A program made the position numbers and the translations under genes. The notes beneath the pieces are model-generated. The model had not been told where the DNA came from. It saw only the letters and a list, made by a program, of their open reading frames with translations, and made no database searches. 64,000 bases of DNA from Neelides folsomi (Eukaryota; Arthropoda; Collembola; Neelipleona; Neelidae): NCBI GenBank assembly GCA_034687125.1, contig JAQGBZ010000156.1:79246-143245 (forward strand), written 5' to 3'. Positions within the stretch are counted from its first letter, which is position 1. Every line of letters starts with the position of its first letter. This document shows positions 17,265-54,200 of this stretch, piece by piece.

Positions 17265-20200
17265 TTATTGATCGATGTATTCAATGGGTTCGTCTTTGAT
17301 GGCGATCGACAATTCATCCCCTCCAGGAGACCTCTGAAAATAAAAGATTTGAGCAATAAACTTCAAAAACTTTTTTCAAATTGTGGTTCTAAAGGGCTTA
17401 GCAGAATGTTTATCTCTTTGCATCCCAATTCCCCTCAACTCATTGACATTCGTGAGGAACTCCTCGAGTGGGGTTCTGAGTAGGGGAAGGCGGGGCAGGA
17501 ACTCCCCTCTCTGCTTACCGGTTCGTCTTTGATGTGAGCTGGGTTGTTCCGATCTCCAGGACCTCCGTTCTCGTCCGCAAATTCCCTTGCATAGTACGCC
17601 TCGTCTTTCACGAACATCTCGTCCTTCACCGTCCCCATCACAATATTGAGAAGGATGGGCGGCATGCAATTTCTCTGCAATTTGGATATTTGGAAGTCAG
17701 AGGCTTTTAAAGTGATTGGTACTGCCTTGACGGCACATAAAACTCCCCGGGATGTGTAATCATTTCATATCAATATCGTAATATGTGTAATGAATAGAAA
17801 AGCAATTCCTCACCTGTTGCTGGGAGAATGACATGAGGTGGTGGGAGAGGGGATCACGAAGTTCTGGAGCTTCATCGAGAGCCGCCTTCAACTGGGCTGG
17901 CGGGAGCGTGAGGAGAATTGGGATGCTCTTCGGGATCGTACGTTGGCAGCATTTAATGAATCCTTCCCACACTTTCGGTTCTGTCCACACCTGGAGGAGA
18001 AGAAGGGGAAATTATCTCCTGGAACCAATCCAATTTCAATGAAGAATCCTCTTAGTCCCATTCGCCCTCCTTTATATGCTCATCGGAAGTTGGTTGAGAG
18101 TACTTTGTCCTCCGGCCCGTGAGGAACTTAATTTGTGGGCTACCAGGAATGGAACCTCCTAGCTCTATTCTTTCCATATTACACCCACATTGAAAGGATA
18201 AGCGGCTTCCAAAACGTAATAAAACGCTCCACATCCCCAAACCCAAAGAAAAGAAAGAAAATAAGGAATTATCTATAGGACTCGTCTACTATAACTCTCC
18301 ATACTACCATTATTATTCACATTTGTGGGAAAATTGTAGAGAAAGTTGGGTGAGAGTCAAAGAAAAGACGGAGGATTAAATTCAGCAAAGAAGTGGAAAT
18401 CTGATTGAGGCTTCGAACAAAATGAGATGACAATGTATGAAAAAGAGTTTTGAAAAGAAGTTTAAGGAAACCTGACCTTTTTTTCAACGAGCCTCGTTAG
18501 TGTGTTCATGATGAACCCTGCGAGCTTCGAGTGAAGAGCCAATGTTTGTATTACGGTACGCATGAGGAGCGTTGGAAGCGGATTCTGCTCCATCAGCTGA
18601 TTGATGACAGCGGCAAGGACTTCCGCTGTGTACACTTCCGTCTCGTTAAAGCAAAGTGAAGTTGCTGTGTAAATACAATCAATTCAATCAAAACAGAATC
18701 TTCAATGACTTCAATCGCAAAAGAATACTTTATGACCCTTGTCATGTACTTAAAAATGTATGGAATTCTAAAACTTTTTCTTTAAATGTAAAAAGTTGAA
18801 AACTTGTGGAAAAAACATATTTGTCCCATGTGTATCATCAAAATTATTTTCTAGAAGAAAAAACAAAAAGTTAAAGTAAATTAACTTACATTTGATTACA
18901 GTTTTGAAGTCGCATTTGCTTGGTTCGATGTTATGTAAAGCAACCATGAGTTCCACTGGAGAAATTGGACTTGCATGCTGGGTTTTTGCATCTGCATGAA
19001 TTCCCAATAGCCGATTAAAGACCTGGAAAGTTAAACAAAGAGTTGAACCCGCAGTTGGCTTTAATGGTCTGTCCTTTATATATCCACCACTTACTTCTTT
19101 CACTACGTTTGGGTTCAATTTGATGAGTTTGGGGAGGGCGGAAAGTATCTCAGTCTTAGTGAGTCCATTGATGACTGGAATTAGGAAACGGACGTCGGAG
19201 ATTCTCTTTGCGTACAAATTTCTTACTCGGTTCACCAAGTCGATCGTGGGGAGAGCTGTGGGGTGAACAAAGACACTTTGGATTACCAAATCCTTCCACA
19301 AACAAATTCCTCCCAAACTTTGGGTTCTTTTCCCTTACTTTTGTCCGTGAGGATGTGAATTATTCGAGTCATTAAAGTTTCGGATCCTTTAGGAAACGTG
19401 TCTAAAAGTTTCATGAGGTCGGGTGACTCCATTCCTATTTTCCTAATCGGAACTTCGATGTATCTTAGAATACTCCGCTTCACATCAGAGGAAGTCTCAA
19501 CGTAAACTTTGGCCAGCCTATAATTTCATACTTTATTATATATTAAATTATCAACATTTAGTTTTAGTCTTAACACTAAATTCCGATCTTCTCCTCATTT
19601 CCTCCCGAGGCGAAAAGATAAGAAGAAATCCGTAAGTTATGAGCTTCATATCATTCATATGACAAGGAAATCCTTACTCGTGGATGAGAGAATTCTTGAT
19701 AATGAGGAGCTGGAAATAAAGATGTAGGCACGATTTTACAAGCTCCTCGTTCCATTCTTTCTCAATATTTGGTCTTCCGAGCTCTGGAGTAAATAGGATT
19801 TCAGGAGGTGAAGGGAGCCGTAGAGAATTAAGAAACGTCTGGACGGCTTGATCATCAATAATTGCTTTGACGCCTTCCGACGACTCGTACAATTGTAAAA
19901 TGCATGTGACTCCATGGGCTCGGATCTAATTGTAGATAAAAAGGTTATAAATTGAAGAACGAATCCGGGCCAACTCCACCTCTTCGTTGGAATGGGAGCA
20001 GAACTCGAGGAGGGCCGAGAGATAATGGAGCTTTTTTGGCATTGATCGCTTCATTACTGATTCCTTAAGGAGGTTCATTCCTTTGCTTGCGTGTGCCGGA
20101 ACACCGCATAATTCCTTGAGGAGTTCCAGACCTTTGTCGGGAATGACGCTAGATTCTGTATACAGACGCCATGCTAAACTAAAAAAAGCACAAAAATTAG

Positions 20201-30800: not shown

Positions 30801-33800
30801 ATAGTAAAAGGTAAATTATTGTACAAACTGTTTAATGATTTTATTTAGGACTGTGATCGAGGGTTGTTGTTTGGACGCAGATTTGGCTGAATTTGAAAAG
30901 GGTGATGAAACTATTGTTGGAGATAGTGGGGCCACATTGAGTGGTGGTCAAAGAATTCGCCTAGCACTTGCTCGTGCTGTTTATCAGGTTGGTCAGTTTG
31001 TCCGATTAAAGAGGATTAAGTAATTAAAAATCTTTTTAACCATTAAGATTTTTATGTGGTTTCAGGACAAGAACTTGTATTTGCTCGACGATATATTTTC
31101 TGCAGTTGACTATAATGTTGGAAAGGACCTTTACAAAAAATGTATTCTTGGCCTTTTAGAAGGAAAAACGAGGGTTGTTGTGACACACCATGTGAGTTTT
31201 CTCAGAAATGCTAATCTCATTATCGTGATGGATAAAGGAAAAATTATTAAACGAGGTGGGTAACATACATAGAATATTGTAAAATTTTCTAATAACGATA
31301 ATATAAATAATGTTCAAATTATTAAATAAAAGGTATTAACTTTATTTTATGTTAAAGGTAAACCAAGTGAAATTCTTCCCATATTTTTTGAAGATGAAGA
31401 AATTTCTTCACTCGATGATACACAAATGGAAGTAAACCCCTCCAAAGCATCTCTCTATCAATCAACTGAATACCATACAGAGAAAGATAAAGGGGGAAAC
31501 GAAGAGAATCGAGAAATTGGAGCCATTCGACTTCACGTTTATACCTCATACTTTTCCTCAATCGGAAAATTCCTTTGTCTCAGCGTCCTGATTTCCCTCT
31601 TGGCTATGCAAGGAACAAAAAATGCATCGGATGTTTGGCTCGCTTATTGGATCTCACAAATTGACAATAATGGGAGTATTCCTGTCCCGGCTTTTACAAC
31701 ATCCACAATTCCTCCTCCCACTTTTGAATCATATAGAAAGACTGAAGAAGGACTTGATGTACTCAATGAAGAAAACGCAAATAACTTATATTTCTCGTAT
31801 TACAAAAGTTTATGGCCAACAAAATTGATTGGCGAGAGCTTTCAGCTCATGCAGAATTTAGATCCTAAAGTTGAATATTTCTTTTCTGTCTTCATATTTA
31901 TTGGACTTCTCAATGCATTTTTTACTCTCGGAAGAGCTTTTCTATTTGCTTATGGCGGAATCAAAGGAGCTGCCGAAACACATACAAAACTTCTTTCATC
32001 TGTCTTAAAGGTTTTACTATTTATCTTTAATTTAACCTTACACTTATTTACATTAAATATTTAATTGAATAATTTTTTTATACCCTGGGTTTCTCAATAT
32101 AAGTAAATTTTAATAGGCAAAAGTGAGTTTTTTCGACTTGACTCCTATTGGAAGAATTATTAATCGATTCGCTTCAGATATTTTCATCGTTGACGATTCA
32201 CTGCCGTTTATTCTTAATATTCTTCTAGCCCAGTTCTTTTTACTTTTAGGTAACTATTCCGCTCTATTAAATTGTCTATTGTATATTTCTATCTGTATAA
32301 TTATTTTTATTAACAATAAATAAGTGTGTATTTGTTAATTGATTTTTTTAAATTTTAGGTACGGTTGTGATTACGTGTTATTCTCTTCCTTGGATTCTTA
32401 TCATATACATTCCTTTACTCCTTGTTGCAAATAACGTTCAAGAGTTTTACAGAAAGACTGCGCGTCAATTAAGGAGGCTTTCCTCAATTGCACTTTCACC
32501 CCTCTTCGCTCACTTTTCAGAAACCATGAAAGGGCTTGTTATAATTCGATCTATGCGAGCAATAAGAAGGTAATTTATAGATTTAATCCTTCTTATATTT
32601 ATTAACGTTGCAGTTGATAGGATAATTAGTTCCTCGTTTATACAGATTTGAAGATGAAAATGAAGCTTATTTGGAAGGGAGTCTTAAAGCTGTTTATTCA
32701 ACTCAAGCTGTAGCTCAATGGCTAAATCTTCGTTTACAATTTATCGGAGTATTTGTCATAACAGGAGTTGGTCTTATCGGTGTCATTCAACATCATTTTC
32801 GTATTGCTGACCCTGGTACGTTTAATTCTTTATACTTAAAACTAATACATACCTACTTATTTACGAATTCTCATCTGTAAACAATTAACAAATTTTTTGT
32901 TTACAGAATTTGTTGGACTTGGAATTTCTTACTCCTTAATTTTAACGAGCTCTTTGAGCGGTTTCATCAACTTCTTAACAGAAACCGAAAAAGAGATGGT
33001 CGGGGTCGAACGAGTCATTGAATATACAGAAAAAATAGAAGAGGAAAGTAATGCTAAAACTTTAGTTAAGATTCCTTACGCGTGGCCGACATTAGGAATC
33101 GTCACTTTTCAAAACGTTTCTTTAAAATACAGGTGATAATTAAAATGAGCTATAATATCCCTTTCTTTTATTCTTAATAAAACAATCATTTTCTTAATTT
33201 TATATCTTCTACTGATATAATAGAGATGAGCTTGGTTATGCTCTCCGCCAAGTTTCATTTGAAACCCGACCATTTGAGAAGATAGGAATTGTTGGAAGGA
33301 CTGGATCGGGGAAATCTAGTTTACTTCAAGCACTATTCAGAATGGTCGACTCTTTCGAAGGAAACATCTTAATTGACTCTGTTAACACAAGGAACGTTAA
33401 CATAAAAGATTTGAGGTATGTATTCGGATTGGGTGTTTAACATTAAATTTTCTTACACTGCATGGCATGCTAATAAAATTAAAGGTTATAGGCAAATTGT
33501 GTAAAAGAACAATAAATGAATAATGACTGTTATTGTAATTGAATGTAGGAAGAAGCTCTGTATCATTCCTCAGCAACCTTTGATATTTACCGGAAGTTTA
33601 AGAGAGAACTTGGATCCAAAGGGAAATCATAGTGAAGAAGAAATTATAAGAGCAATTGAGAAATGTCAACTCGGAGGGTTCATGACAAGAGTTGGAGGAA
33701 TTGGAGGGAGCGTGGGAGAAGGAGGGAATTTACTTTCGGCTGGACAAAAGCAATTACTTTGTCTCGCTAGAGCCATTCTGATTAACGCAAAGGTTTGTTT

Positions 33801-34352
33801 AAAAAGCTACCTCATAGTATTAATTAATTTTATTTAGAAATATTATTTATGAGTAAATTATTTATCAATAACACCCAAATTTCATTAAATAGATCTTATG
33901 TATTGATGAAGCGACTGCAAATTGTGATCAAGAAACCGACAAAATAATTCAATCGACAATTAGGACTTCATTTAGGTTTGCTAAATATCACTATTATTTT
34001 TAAAGTCTAAACCTATTAGCTTTACAATATTTTGGTTACAATATCATTATTTAATTTCTTTATGCTAATATATTTGAAAATTTAATTGTAGGCATAATAC
34101 GGTTATAACAATTGCACACCGAGTGCATACTATTCTGTACAATGACAGGTAATGTCAAAATTATTCCAAGTAATTACAAGGATATTGGATGAGAAAAGTT
34201 TAATCTATAGATTTTTCATTGGCCATACCTATTTATCTTTTTTCAGAGTGATTGTGATGAACAAAGGTGAGATAGTCGAGTTTGATGGACCGCAAGAACT
34301 CATGTTAGACAAAGCGTCCCATTTCTACCGTCTTGCTCATGGAGTCATTTGA
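27876..34352 (+). CDS. ABCC10: ABCC10/MRP7-type ABC transporter, 20 exons
   Basis: Full-length ABC subfamily C exporter. Relatives pump amphipathic anions, glucuronides and drugs across the plasma membrane. Exons: 27876-29037, 29156-29488, 29577-29702, 29782-29930, 30018-30137, 30215-30373, 30466-30589, 30676-30769, 30849-30987, 31066-31255, 31358-32010, 32117-32249, 32359-32569, 32646-32815, 32907-33132, 33224-33415, 33549-33792, 33893-33975, 34092-34148, 34247-34352; 4671 nt, 1556 residues (human ABCC10 about 1490). An N-terminal TMD0 of several hydrophobic helices is followed by TMD1. NBD1 has Walker A GEVGSGKTS about 691-699, LSGGQ 786-790, and YLLDD 807-811 with Asp in place of the catalytic Glu. 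TMD2 follows, then NBD2 (GRTGSGKSS 1354-1362, LSAGQ 1456-1460, CIDEA with Glu 1481, H-loop IAHRV). The TMD0, the degenerate NBD1 site and the overall order fit ABCC10 rather than ABCC1/2, but orthology is inferred from recall, not a tree. Confidence 0.9.
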
Positions 34353-36174: not shown

Positions 36175-36777
36175 ATGGCCAAAAGAAAAAGTTCTCTACC
36201 TTTGTCCATCCCACGCCGAACTTCATTCTCGTCTTTCAACGTAGGGCAAGGAATGAATTGTAAGTTTAATCCCGGGAAAATATTTGTTATAAAGATCCGG
36301 AAAATATACGAGGTCGGGATATATGATAATGTTTTGATTTTCCGATTTTTTAGCTTTTGACTCATCTCCACCAATAATGGGAGCATCATCATCCGCAATG
36401 AACATTTCTTACTCTCCTTACTATGCGAATTCACCTTCAACATTCATGACCGGTCCTTCCCGAGAGATTGGAACTCAAACACCGACTGAAAAATTGACTT
36501 TCGACTTTCCAGATTCACGACGCGGCTCACGAGACTCAAACTCAACGGATGACGAAACGGGTAAATTTTTTTGTAAAGTAACTTTAAATAACGTTTGAAG
36601 CGTAGTTAAAGTTTATTTAAAGATACAATAAAAGTAAAATACAAATTTATCTAACTTATTTTTGTTACTTCAACAGGGGATGTGGGACGAAGTTTGAGGA
36701 TGATCGGTGATGAATTGGATCGTCGTGGTTCGTCGCGAAGAAATTCTCTTATCCTCTTCCTTCGAAAATCCCTTTAA
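36175..36777 (+). CDS. Candidate BH3-only protein, BIM/BMF-like, 3 exons
   Basis: Exons 36175-36259, 36354-36560 and 36677-36777 join in phase (splits in Ser29 and Gly98) to 393 nt, 130 residues. The protein is Ser/Arg-rich and probably disordered. Two motifs stand out. EIGTQTP (residues 66-72; TQT at 69-71) resembles the dynein-light-chain (DYNLL) binding TQT motif of BIM and BMF. SLRMIGDELDRR (103-114, encoded 36691-36726) has the BH3 pattern L-x-x-x-G-D-E with hydrophobic spacing, close to the BIM core LRRIGDEF. A short hydrophobic, basic tail (SLILFLRKSL) ends the protein, where BIM has a membrane-seeking tail. The order TQT, BH3, tail matches BIM/BMF. If correct, the protein would bind pro-survival BCL-2 proteins at mitochondria and be restrained by dynein light chain. 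The ATG has G at -3 and +4, and an in-frame stop lies at 36154-36156. Conservation is limited to short motifs, so function is inferred. Confidence 0.7.
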
Positions 36778-37267
36778 GGTCAAAATGTGAATTATTCGCA
36801 ACAATGGCTAAAAGATCTGTTTCAATGGAACTTCGACTAGGACCCTTCTCGCTTCTAAATATCCACAAGTATAGAATGCTCATTTGTAAAATCCAATCTT
36901 CATCTTTTGGTTCTTTCTAAAATACGAAAAAAATGTTAAACTTGTTTCTTCTCTTATAGTTGGCTTCTACCATTAAACTTCTCAAGATGTATTAGATTAA
37001 AATTAGTATTAATTAAATTAAGAATTTAAGAATTACGCTTCGAAGTGCTAATAAGGCTGGGATTATTTGTTTTAGTCCTTTCCATTCAGCCAATCGACTA
37101 ATAAAATTGATAGTTTTAACTTCAAAGAGTTCTTCATCGCATGCATCCTTTTCCGAAAATGTTGGATGATAAGACTGTGATTCAAATATTGATCATGTTA
37201 ATTATGCATACTTTATTATTTATGGTTAAAATGTAATAACTACTTATATAATTTATAAGGTTTCGTT
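36778..37267. other. Convergent spacer (BH3 candidate / ANAPC1)
   Basis: 490 bp between two convergent stop codons, AT-rich. I looked here on the minus strand for the missing APC1 C-terminal exons and found no open frame resembling them. Confidence 0.65.
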
Positions 37268-51239: not shown

Positions 51240-54200
51240 ATGGGGACGCGAGCAGCAGCATGTAAGAACATTATAACAATTTAAAAATAAAGTTCATTTT
51301 AATACCTAATTTCATTACTGATTTAACTTTTGAAAATGATAATTTAGTTACAGCAAAAATTCGCAATCTACAAGATTACCATTCAAGACTCACAAATGGA
51401 ATTATGCCTCTTCCTACTGGGATTGATATTGCAAATACACTCAAACATTTCTCTCAAACTTTATTAGGTTCGTTTTTAAATTATTGTTCTTTTTATATAA
51501 ACATTTAACATTTATAATCATTTCTTTATTTATTGAATATTACTTCATAATTACTAAATGCACATTTATTATAGTTGTGCTGAAAGATGTGCCTGATTAT
51601 CCTCTCGAGATGTTAAAATTGCGAAGTGAAGATGCAAACCGAATGCAGTTATTTCCAAATTTAGATTACAAATCTCTCTTCACCGTTGTTGTACAACTGA
51701 TTGATGTGACTCCAACAGTGCAATTTGGGGTTCAAGGTAAATTTTTTGTCTAAATGCAGTATTTCTATTTTGAGGAAATTTCATCACGATAATCTTGTAA
51801 ATATTCATTTGGAATAATCAAATTTTTGTTAATTATTTTATTTTTAAGCATTTGGACAAGCGATATTACAGACAATTGCGACATTGCTTCCATTTCTAGA
51901 ACACGAATTCATTGACACTCTCCCATATATTGTGGCAGCTTCTCTTGGAACGTTTCCTTGTTCTCTACATCAAGATATAATTGACTTGCTATGTCATTAC
52001 TTGATTCCTTTTACTTTATGTGAGAACTTTTCTCAGCCATAAATAAATCATAGAATTAGATCTTATTTTACAGATTCTGATATTATTGGCTTTTAATTTT
52101 TTAAATTACTCCATAAATTATAGATAATTGTCATGATATCAGCGATAAATTCAATTATGCAAGTCACTCAGTTTCTGCTGTTTTGATGATGGTGCTTCAA
52201 TACACTACAAGTTCGGGTGAGTTATTAATTAATTTTACATAAATATATTACAATTTTATGATTATAGAACAAATCAATCATTGAATGGAGGATTTTGTAT
52301 ACAATAATCTATTAGTAATATTTAATCTGTTACAATCTGTTTAAATTAGTTTAAATGATTATGAATATTATATGAATACACACATTCGAAATATAATTTA
52401 ATATTAAAGTAGTGATAACATATTATTTATTTTCAGAATTCCATTCTCAAGTTATGGAATGCATAATGAGCTTCAAAAGAGATGCTGTTAAAGACGTACT
52501 TTGTGTGGTCGCATATGGAACTTTAGAAGCAAGAAGCGTTGCAATAAATCTTCTTGTTTTTTATTGGCCTCACATTAATCCAACATTATATGACAGAAGA
52601 AGCATAAATTTCAAGTTCAATGGTAATTTTTCTTGAATTTTTGGAAATTGGAATAAGTTTTATTCCTACTAATTTCAAAAAAGTTGGGTTTTTATTAAGA
52701 CTTCTAACTGACCATAGGCTTTAGAACGCCCACTTGTCGAAGTGAAATGTGCAGCGTTAATAACGCTGGAGGTTGTGCAGACGCAGTTAAGATTTGTCTC
52801 GATCATTCGATAGGAGTTTCTCTTGCTCCCGAAAATGCACCTCCTCTATTCTTGTGTCAAGAATGTGCCACGAGACTGACTCACGATCAGCCTGCAGCTT
52901 CTGATCATCTTTATGATGTTCTTCAACCTATTCAGCAAGTTCCAATGACTTGCGAAAATAAAGTTAGTGTGATTAAGAAATATATTACTCATACAATATC
53001 TTTTTTGTATAATACCTTTACCCCTTTTCTAATATTCTAATTTGTAAATTCTTCTAGAATTGCCGATCAACAGAGAAAGCTGCAATTATAATATGCTTCT
53101 CTGCTGAATGTGCGAGTTATAATGGAACAAAGCCAATTCGCTATTGTGGACAGTGCCACTCAATTAGGCATAATAATAGAAGAGGAGGTGACCATATATT
53201 TCATATGTGTCTCGGATCTCCAATGAAAATGGATAATGATTGCCTTACTTATGATGTCGAAGCAATTGTTAGGTAAGTAAATGATTTACATAATACTAAA
53301 TAAGTGTTATTTTTTATAGTCCAATGTTTTTTATTTTAACATACCTATGTAAGTATTGTTAAACTTCTCAATTTTTTGCATTTTCCAGTTTACTTTTAGA
53401 AAACGAGCCATTGATAAGCCGTGGAGGAGTTAAAGATAACATAGATCAACAAACAAGACTCCGGCTGTTCACAGATGGTGAATTTACGGATCCAATATCC
53501 CTTGAAGATAGGAGATTGATGGGAAGATATGGGATTTGGCTTCTCGTTGGTTTCTTCAATCCCGAAGATCACATTTCAAACGATGTTTTGGGAAGACTTC
53601 TTTCAGCCCTTTTCCAATGGTTCAATACTACAGCTTATCTTGGAGATGGTACTTGGCTTAAAATATTAAAGTACAAATAGTATAAAATCATGATTTCTAT
53701 TTTCCTTTTAGAATTAACTTAATTTACAATGAAATTAATATAAATATTTTTTGCTAGATCCGAACGCCAATTCTCTTGAAAGGCTTAAAGCAGAAGTTGT
53801 TTGCCCCTGGATAAAAAGAATTATTAAATCTCATTTTGAAACGTTTGTTTCTTGCTTGCTTCCACATCCTCCAGAATTTGCAAGAGTTGGAGGGCATTGG
53901 TTAGTATATAGATTAACATCGCTTTAAACAAAATGTTCCATGTTATTCAATAATATAATCATAAAAAATATTTAACAGGGATGTAATATCGAGTCGAACA
54001 TTTCATCTGCGTGAAGGGTTCAATAGGCTTTTCTGCTTGGTTCCATATGAAGTAATTTCATGTGAAATATGGAGTCAAATCATGCCAAATTGGATGGAAG
54101 CAATGGCGTCAGAAGTCCCAGAAGAAGAAATGGCTGAACTTAAAATCATATTGAGGTACTTAATAATTATTTAATGAAATTTATTTAAAATGAATGGAAT

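Follow-up and report, generated by a model that had tools for sequence, protein, structure and literature searches.

Structure and coding signal of the candidate locus

According to our analysis, positions 36175 to 36777 of the window, by which we mean the whole stretch of 64,000 nucleotides analysed here on contig C156, hold a three-exon frame on the plus strand that encodes 130 residues. The original prediction had described this frame, with EIGTQTP at residues 66 to 72 and SLRMIGDELDRR at residues 103 to 114, and all of these elements were confirmed from the sequence. The features of the locus are listed below.

36175..36259, plus strand: exon 1, 85 nt, residues 1 to 28 plus one base, from the first ATG of the open frame; donor GTAAGT
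36260..36353, plus strand: intron 1, 94 nt, GT..AG, phase 1, GC 0.31
36354..36560, plus strand: exon 2, 207 nt, bearing the DYNLL-type motif
36464..36484, plus strand: DYNLL/LC8-type motif EIGTQTP, residues 66 to 72, from the sequence and the LC8 motif rules
36561..36676, plus strand: intron 2, 116 nt, GT..AG, phase 1, GC 0.20, between the TQT exon and the BH3 exon
36677..36777, plus strand: exon 3, 101 nt, with the BH3, a short hydrophobic tail and the stop TAA
36682..36720, plus strand: BH3 core VGRSLRMIGDELD, residues 100 to 112, from the PDB search, the BH3 profile and the genome-wide pattern
36730..36774, plus strand: C-terminal tail SSRRNSLILFLRKSL, residues 116 to 130, short, hydrophobic and basic
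37100..37105, plus strand: possible polyadenylation signal AATAAA, about 320 nt past the stop, read from the sequence

The two introns are bounded by the donors GTAAGT and GTAAAT and the acceptors TTTTAG and CAACAG. GC content is 0.44 to 0.47 in the exons, compared with 0.31 and 0.20 in the introns and 0.27 and 0.29 in the flanks. A codon score was trained on 19 stretches (2,870 codons) of the window that were picked by eye; it gives the joined frame 35.7 bits, or 0.27 per codon, and the training stretches themselves 0.18 to 0.45 in-sample. Base shuffles of the joined frame (n = 2,000) have a mean of 10.1, a standard deviation of 7.0 and a maximum of 32.9, with 6.4 stops on average where the frame itself has none. 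In exon 2 the coding frame stands out, being the sole stop-free one among six and reaching +21.7 bits where none of the other frames exceeds +7.5. Neither exon 1 nor exon 3 is decisive by itself: the coding frame scores 4.7 in exon 1, where a reverse-strand frame reaches 9.0, and 8.6 in exon 3, where one reaches 7.7. Codon usage and the GC contrast thus support a real gene at 36175 to 36777, one that is presumably transcribed. That the locus is not a gene, and consists of chance open frames in the intergenic DNA that separates an ABC transporter gene from a minus-strand gene, could draw on the ambiguity of exons 1 and 3 as plus-strand coding sequence and on the reverse complement of the joined frame, which reaches up to 23.3; set against a codon score of 35.7 that lies beyond the highest shuffle, and against the abrupt changes in GC where exons meet introns, this reading is very improbable.

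The upstream neighbour is the ABC transporter gene, located on the plus strand with a Pfam ABC_tran match at 33216 to 33440; its last open frame, as judged by eye, ends at 34352 and has no Pfam match of its own. The downstream neighbour is a long minus-strand gene whose last open frame reaches 37268 and which, by eye and without Pfam support, we take to be ANAPC1. Elsewhere the window contains an UNC-79 exon (52708 to 53037, plus strand, Pfam E 7.6e-19), UNC-79 being a subunit of a cation-channel complex, and the C-terminal domain of Symplekin (18771 to 19334, minus strand, Pfam E 7.2e-17).

The protein encoded at the locus is small and probably mostly disordered, as far as composition alone can tell for residues 1 to 96, where disorder-promoting residues make up 77%. 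Its start, MAKRKSSLPLSIPRRTSF, encoded by exon 1, is rich in Ser, Arg and Lys. The hydrophobic basic tail that had been predicted at the other end is real, but it is short and less hydrophobic than the tails of BIM and BMF (best 8-mer NSLILFLR, 1.24 versus 1.62 and 1.97).

A BH3 core in the third exon

As expected of a BH3-only protein, VGRSLRMIGDELD contains the L-x-x-x-G/A/S-D core and hydrophobic residues at all four positions, h1 to h4 being V100, L104, I107 and L111, with G108 and D109 between the last two. When all 130 residues were searched against PDB chains with phmmer, 22 matches were returned at E<=10, and 20 of these were BAK BH3 chains; residues 97 to 117, TGDVGRSLRMIGDELDRRGSS, were aligned to the BAK BH3 MGQVGRQLKIIGDDINRRYDS. 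The best match has an E value of 0.15, which is suggestive and below significance.

A BH3 profile was built from 13 known BH3 segments. The candidate 13-mer scores 27.0 bits with this profile, 26.1 bits when BAK is omitted and 23.8 bits with a profile of eight BH3-only proteins, and the best that eight shuffles reach on the three profiles is 15.8, 16.2 and 17.4, respectively. In leave-one-out scoring the known BH3s range from 16.1 to 32.5 bits; the candidate tops 10 of the 13, and BIM, PUMA and BIK score higher. No other 13-mer comes within 6 bits of it in the 6,078 six-frame open reading frames of at least 25 codons found in 264 kb, made up of the window plus 200 kb from contig C12. Assuming independent and identically distributed (i.i.d.) residues, the number of 13-mers expected at the candidate's score in the six frames of 75 Mb is 0.026 with the 13 BH3s, 0.051 without BAK and 0.28 with the eight BH3-only proteins.

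We also scanned the whole genome (75.1 Mb in 840 contigs) on both strands with a strict core pattern, L/F-x-x-hydrophobic-G-D-D/E-hydrophobic-N/D, written as a degenerate DNA pattern. It occurs at 14 places, and a reversed control pattern at 7. The candidate is the best of the 14 (27.0 bits, the next scoring 16.5) and the only one that has TQT, whatever the forward frame, in the 700 nt upstream. The runner-up, SQGELKALGDDFD at C47:228695-228721, has those 16.5 bits and lies in an open frame of 60 codons with no TQT upstream; it may be another BH3 or a chance match.

AlphaFold2, run without alignment on the 40-residue frame 36655 to 36774, gave one helix with a mean pLDDT of 65.6 (75 over GRSLRMIGDE), a model which says little beyond helix propensity. 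The human BIM and BAK BH3 peptides found nothing in the genome at E<=10; this search is blind to short queries, since it returned no candidates at first look, the present locus included. On the negative side, Pfam returned no family for the candidate protein at E<=10, with filters that discard most matches above about 0.1, and the Bclx_interact model had no match in the genome, its control likewise being without any match.

One alternative is that the gene is real and encodes an ordinary LC8-binding protein or some other disordered protein, in which the BH3-like helix is there by chance. Minimal BH3 patterns are loose, BH3-like motifs may arise by chance or convergence, and the likeness of the Drosophila protein sayonara to BIK was called fortuitous by its authors, according to the excerpted text (PMC10107002). 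Against this, the candidate has the four hydrophobic positions, Gly and Asp all present, and a nominal proteome of 8 million residues would be expected to hold 0.007 to 0.056 such 13-mers (i.i.d.), the TQT requirement being left aside. We regard this alternative as unlikely.

A DYNLL-type motif ahead of the BH3

In BIM and BMF a TQT motif lies N-terminal to the BH3, and the candidate has the same order, with the predicted motif GTQTP 35 residues ahead of the BH3 Leu. For LC8, phage selection yielded V-S-R-G-T-Q-T-E as the consensus, and DKSTQTD is the natural consensus peptide (PMC3078936); position +2 favours Pro, Asp and Glu, and position -3 often has larger, positively charged side chains, as excerpted from PMC6607443. 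EIGTQTP matches the G-T-Q-T core of the evolved consensus (PMC3078936) and agrees with the LC8 rules from -2 to +2, disagreeing at -3, where it has Ile.

By itself TQT is expected in 0.7 to 1.5% of 100-residue stretches and TQT[PDE] in 0.12 to 0.25%. Multiplying these figures with those for the BH3 under the i.i.d. model, both motifs in one protein have an expected number of at most about 1e-3 per nominal proteome, or of at most about 4e-3 when the count extends to all six frames of the 75 Mb; these values apply to a pairing chosen after viewing the sequence, TQT being the sole partner motif prescribed by BIM and BMF. Taken with the PDB matches, the profile, the LC8 rules, the strict pattern and the chance model, the earlier description of a BH3-only-like protein with a DYNLL motif in the BIM/BMF order has good support at the level of sequence architecture.

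Bcl-2-family and dynein light chain genes in the same genome

Bcl-2-family exons scoring above the Pfam cut-off occur at three places in the genome, on C12, C384 and C125, with a weak match beside the last. For PDB searches the exons at each place were joined by eye. The C12 product resembles BCL-2 and BAX (E 9e-11 and 6e-10), and the C384 product resembles BCL2L10 and BCL-xL (E 1.5e-4 and 5e-4); C125 found nothing in PDB at 0.01 and has Pfam support alone. At the BH1 site an arginine precedes Ile in C12 (TRERI) and C125 (WGRI), as read by eye, and C384, a likely pro-survival partner, has NWGK instead of NWGR (also by eye). Dynein_light matches were found on C180 (two), C171 and C305, and three of the four run across stops, as matches entering introns do. 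The DYNLL exon on C180 shares 52 of 53 residues with 1rhw, a dynein light chain 1 chain. An Apaf-1 gene may be represented by a pair of NB-ARC matches on C267. Further NB-ARC matches lie in long open frames of 285 to 451 codons on C829, C824, C369, C235, C305 and C341, and may stem either from bacterial contigs or from an expanded family.

The candidate locus itself shows, among the Pfam matches listed, neither BH1 nor BH2 nor a sign of the Bcl-2 fold, as befits a BH3-only protein. Among the matches listed there is no Bcl-2 Pfam match on C156, and therefore no sign of a multidomain member; BAX and BAK have BH1 and BH2 after the BH3, and here the frame ends 18 residues past the core. The possibility that the exons are part of a multidomain Bcl-2 gene was rejected, no BH1 or BH2 match being listed for C156.

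It could still be supposed that a BAX/BAK-like gene became BH3-only via loss of BH1 and BH2 and gained its DYNLL motif afterwards. The PDB matches speak for such an origin insofar as they are to the BH3 of BAK, a multidomain protein, whose likeness to the candidate extends over both flanks of the core. However, the matching flanks are short and easily alike, GRELRQLADAF, the BH3 of the BCL-2/BAX-like gene that the organism has on C12, is unlike that of the candidate, and no BH1/BH2 match is seen on C156 among the matches listed. We judge this origin to be improbable.

That the organism is an arthropod, as originally proposed, is supported by a mitochondrial contig (C742, GC 0.32) on which ND2, COX1, COX2 and ATP6 were read by eye in that order. 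This is the ancestral arthropod order, and it suggests the affiliation. Notostracans (tadpole shrimps) are described as retaining the ancestral pancrustacean order in their mitochondrial DNA (PMC6537178, in part). A tRNA scan of the mitochondrial locus with the bacterial code located none, and a search of the genome with an 18S stretch gave no match.

Relationship to BIM, BMF and other BH3-only proteins

The comparisons below were made with the human BIM and BMF sequences. BIM (BCL2L11) shows the same succession of TQT, BH3 and hydrophobic C-terminal stretch, and the BH3 cores are nearly identical (LRRIGDEF in BIM, LRMIGDEL in the candidate). From TQT to the BH3 Leu there are 35 residues in the candidate, 38 in BIM and 67 in BMF. 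BIM is longer, with 198 residues against 130, and has 41 residues after the BH3 Asp, where the candidate has 21. BMF likewise combines a DYNLL motif and a BH3 in one small protein and has ILLFL in its hydrophobic tail, compared with LILFL in the candidate, whereas its BH3 has Ala-Asp in place of Gly-Asp.

The earlier suggestion of an arthropod orthologue or a convergent BH3-only protein holds as regards the BH3-only architecture, while orthology finds no backing in sequence similarity. Of 3,000 shuffles, 349 score as high as the candidate against human BIM, 1508 when the BH3 is masked and 1574 when both motifs are masked; the corresponding numbers against human BMF are 1280, 2921 and 2820. These results are non-significant and Pfam returned no family, so that no homology was found outside the motifs. 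An apparent N-terminal likeness to BIM (RR.S, SFD..SP) was discarded, its score of 30 being no better than that of shuffles (mean 30.7). On the sequence as it stands, we would not file the candidate as a BIM/BMF orthologue: it has TQT before BH3 and shows no significant similarity beyond the motifs.

Because disordered proteins often lose such a signal, the missing similarity is compatible with true orthology, the stronger form of our preferred reading, in which a DYNLL-tethered BH3-only protein older than the protostome-deuterostome split would have been lost in flies and nematodes. We hold this as a tentative proposal. It is favoured by the order of TQT, BH3 and hydrophobic tail, by a spacing near that of BIM, and by the location of TQT and BH3 on separate exons, an arrangement also suggested for BMF by isoforms with the DLC motif and without the BH3 (PMC12811263, as excerpted). 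Besides the non-significant shuffle tests, the excerpted text of PMC8998228 weighs against it, giving deuterostomes and possibly lophotrochozoans as holders in a survey that started from the human proteins Bim, Bad and Bmf, and stating that BH3-only proteins were not identified in insects.

No second copy of the candidate was seen in its own genome, where, besides the three exons, the only match among those listed is C155:50218-50376 (E 1.84, with an internal stop), which we put down to chance. Pattern matches in viral contigs (28) and in prokaryote contigs (154) yielded no confirmed relative, as was expected of both. We know of no DYNLL motif in EGL-1. This C. elegans protein is an ecdysozoan BH3-only protein (PMC8998228, in part). 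Within the arthropods, sayonara (CG14044) of Drosophila, published after the survey cited above, is a BH3-only protein that interacts with Bcl-2 proteins; it is a member of coiled-coil family PTHR21974, with a BH3 of dipteran origin that its authors regard as convergent, and the excerpted account mentions no DYNLL motif (PMC10107002). The statement that flies lack an obvious BIM/BMF may stand, yet a BH3-only protein does exist in Drosophila, according to the same excerpt. Among the open-licence papers listed for invertebrate, arthropod, mite, crustacean, chelicerate and Daphnia BH3-only proteins, the titles and opening parts of abstracts reveal no BIM/BMF-like protein in arthropods.

Proposed mode of action and implications

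In the reading that we prefer, and which we consider probable, the locus at 36175 to 36777 is a real gene, of which the matches listed show no second copy, and it encodes a DYNLL-tethered BH3-only protein working like BIM and BMF. Its GTQTP segment would add a strand to the DYNLL dimer, and DYNLL binding would tether the protein to motor or cytoskeletal complexes. Regulation would be by release or induction, upon which residues from about 100 to 112 would form a helix in the groove of the organism's own Bcl-2-family proteins; V100, L104, I107 and L111 would be buried there, and D109 would point at the groove arginine. Such binding would neutralise pro-survival members and/or activate a BAX-like member, by which the protein may kill cells, and the short hydrophobic basic tail could aid membrane contact.

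Reviews describe ecdysozoan apoptosis as reduced via gene loss (PMC7022251 and PMC8998228, in their excerpted parts). The candidate raises the possibility, which we put forward with reserve, that an LC8-gated mitochondrial death pathway predates the vertebrates, the cytoskeleton-tethered BH3-only sensor being a bilaterian invention that one or more arthropod lineages retained and that flies and nematodes lost. An arthropod protein that joins a DYNLL anchor to a strong BH3 would mean either that the BIM/BMF design is of bilaterian age or that this two-motif design evolved twice.
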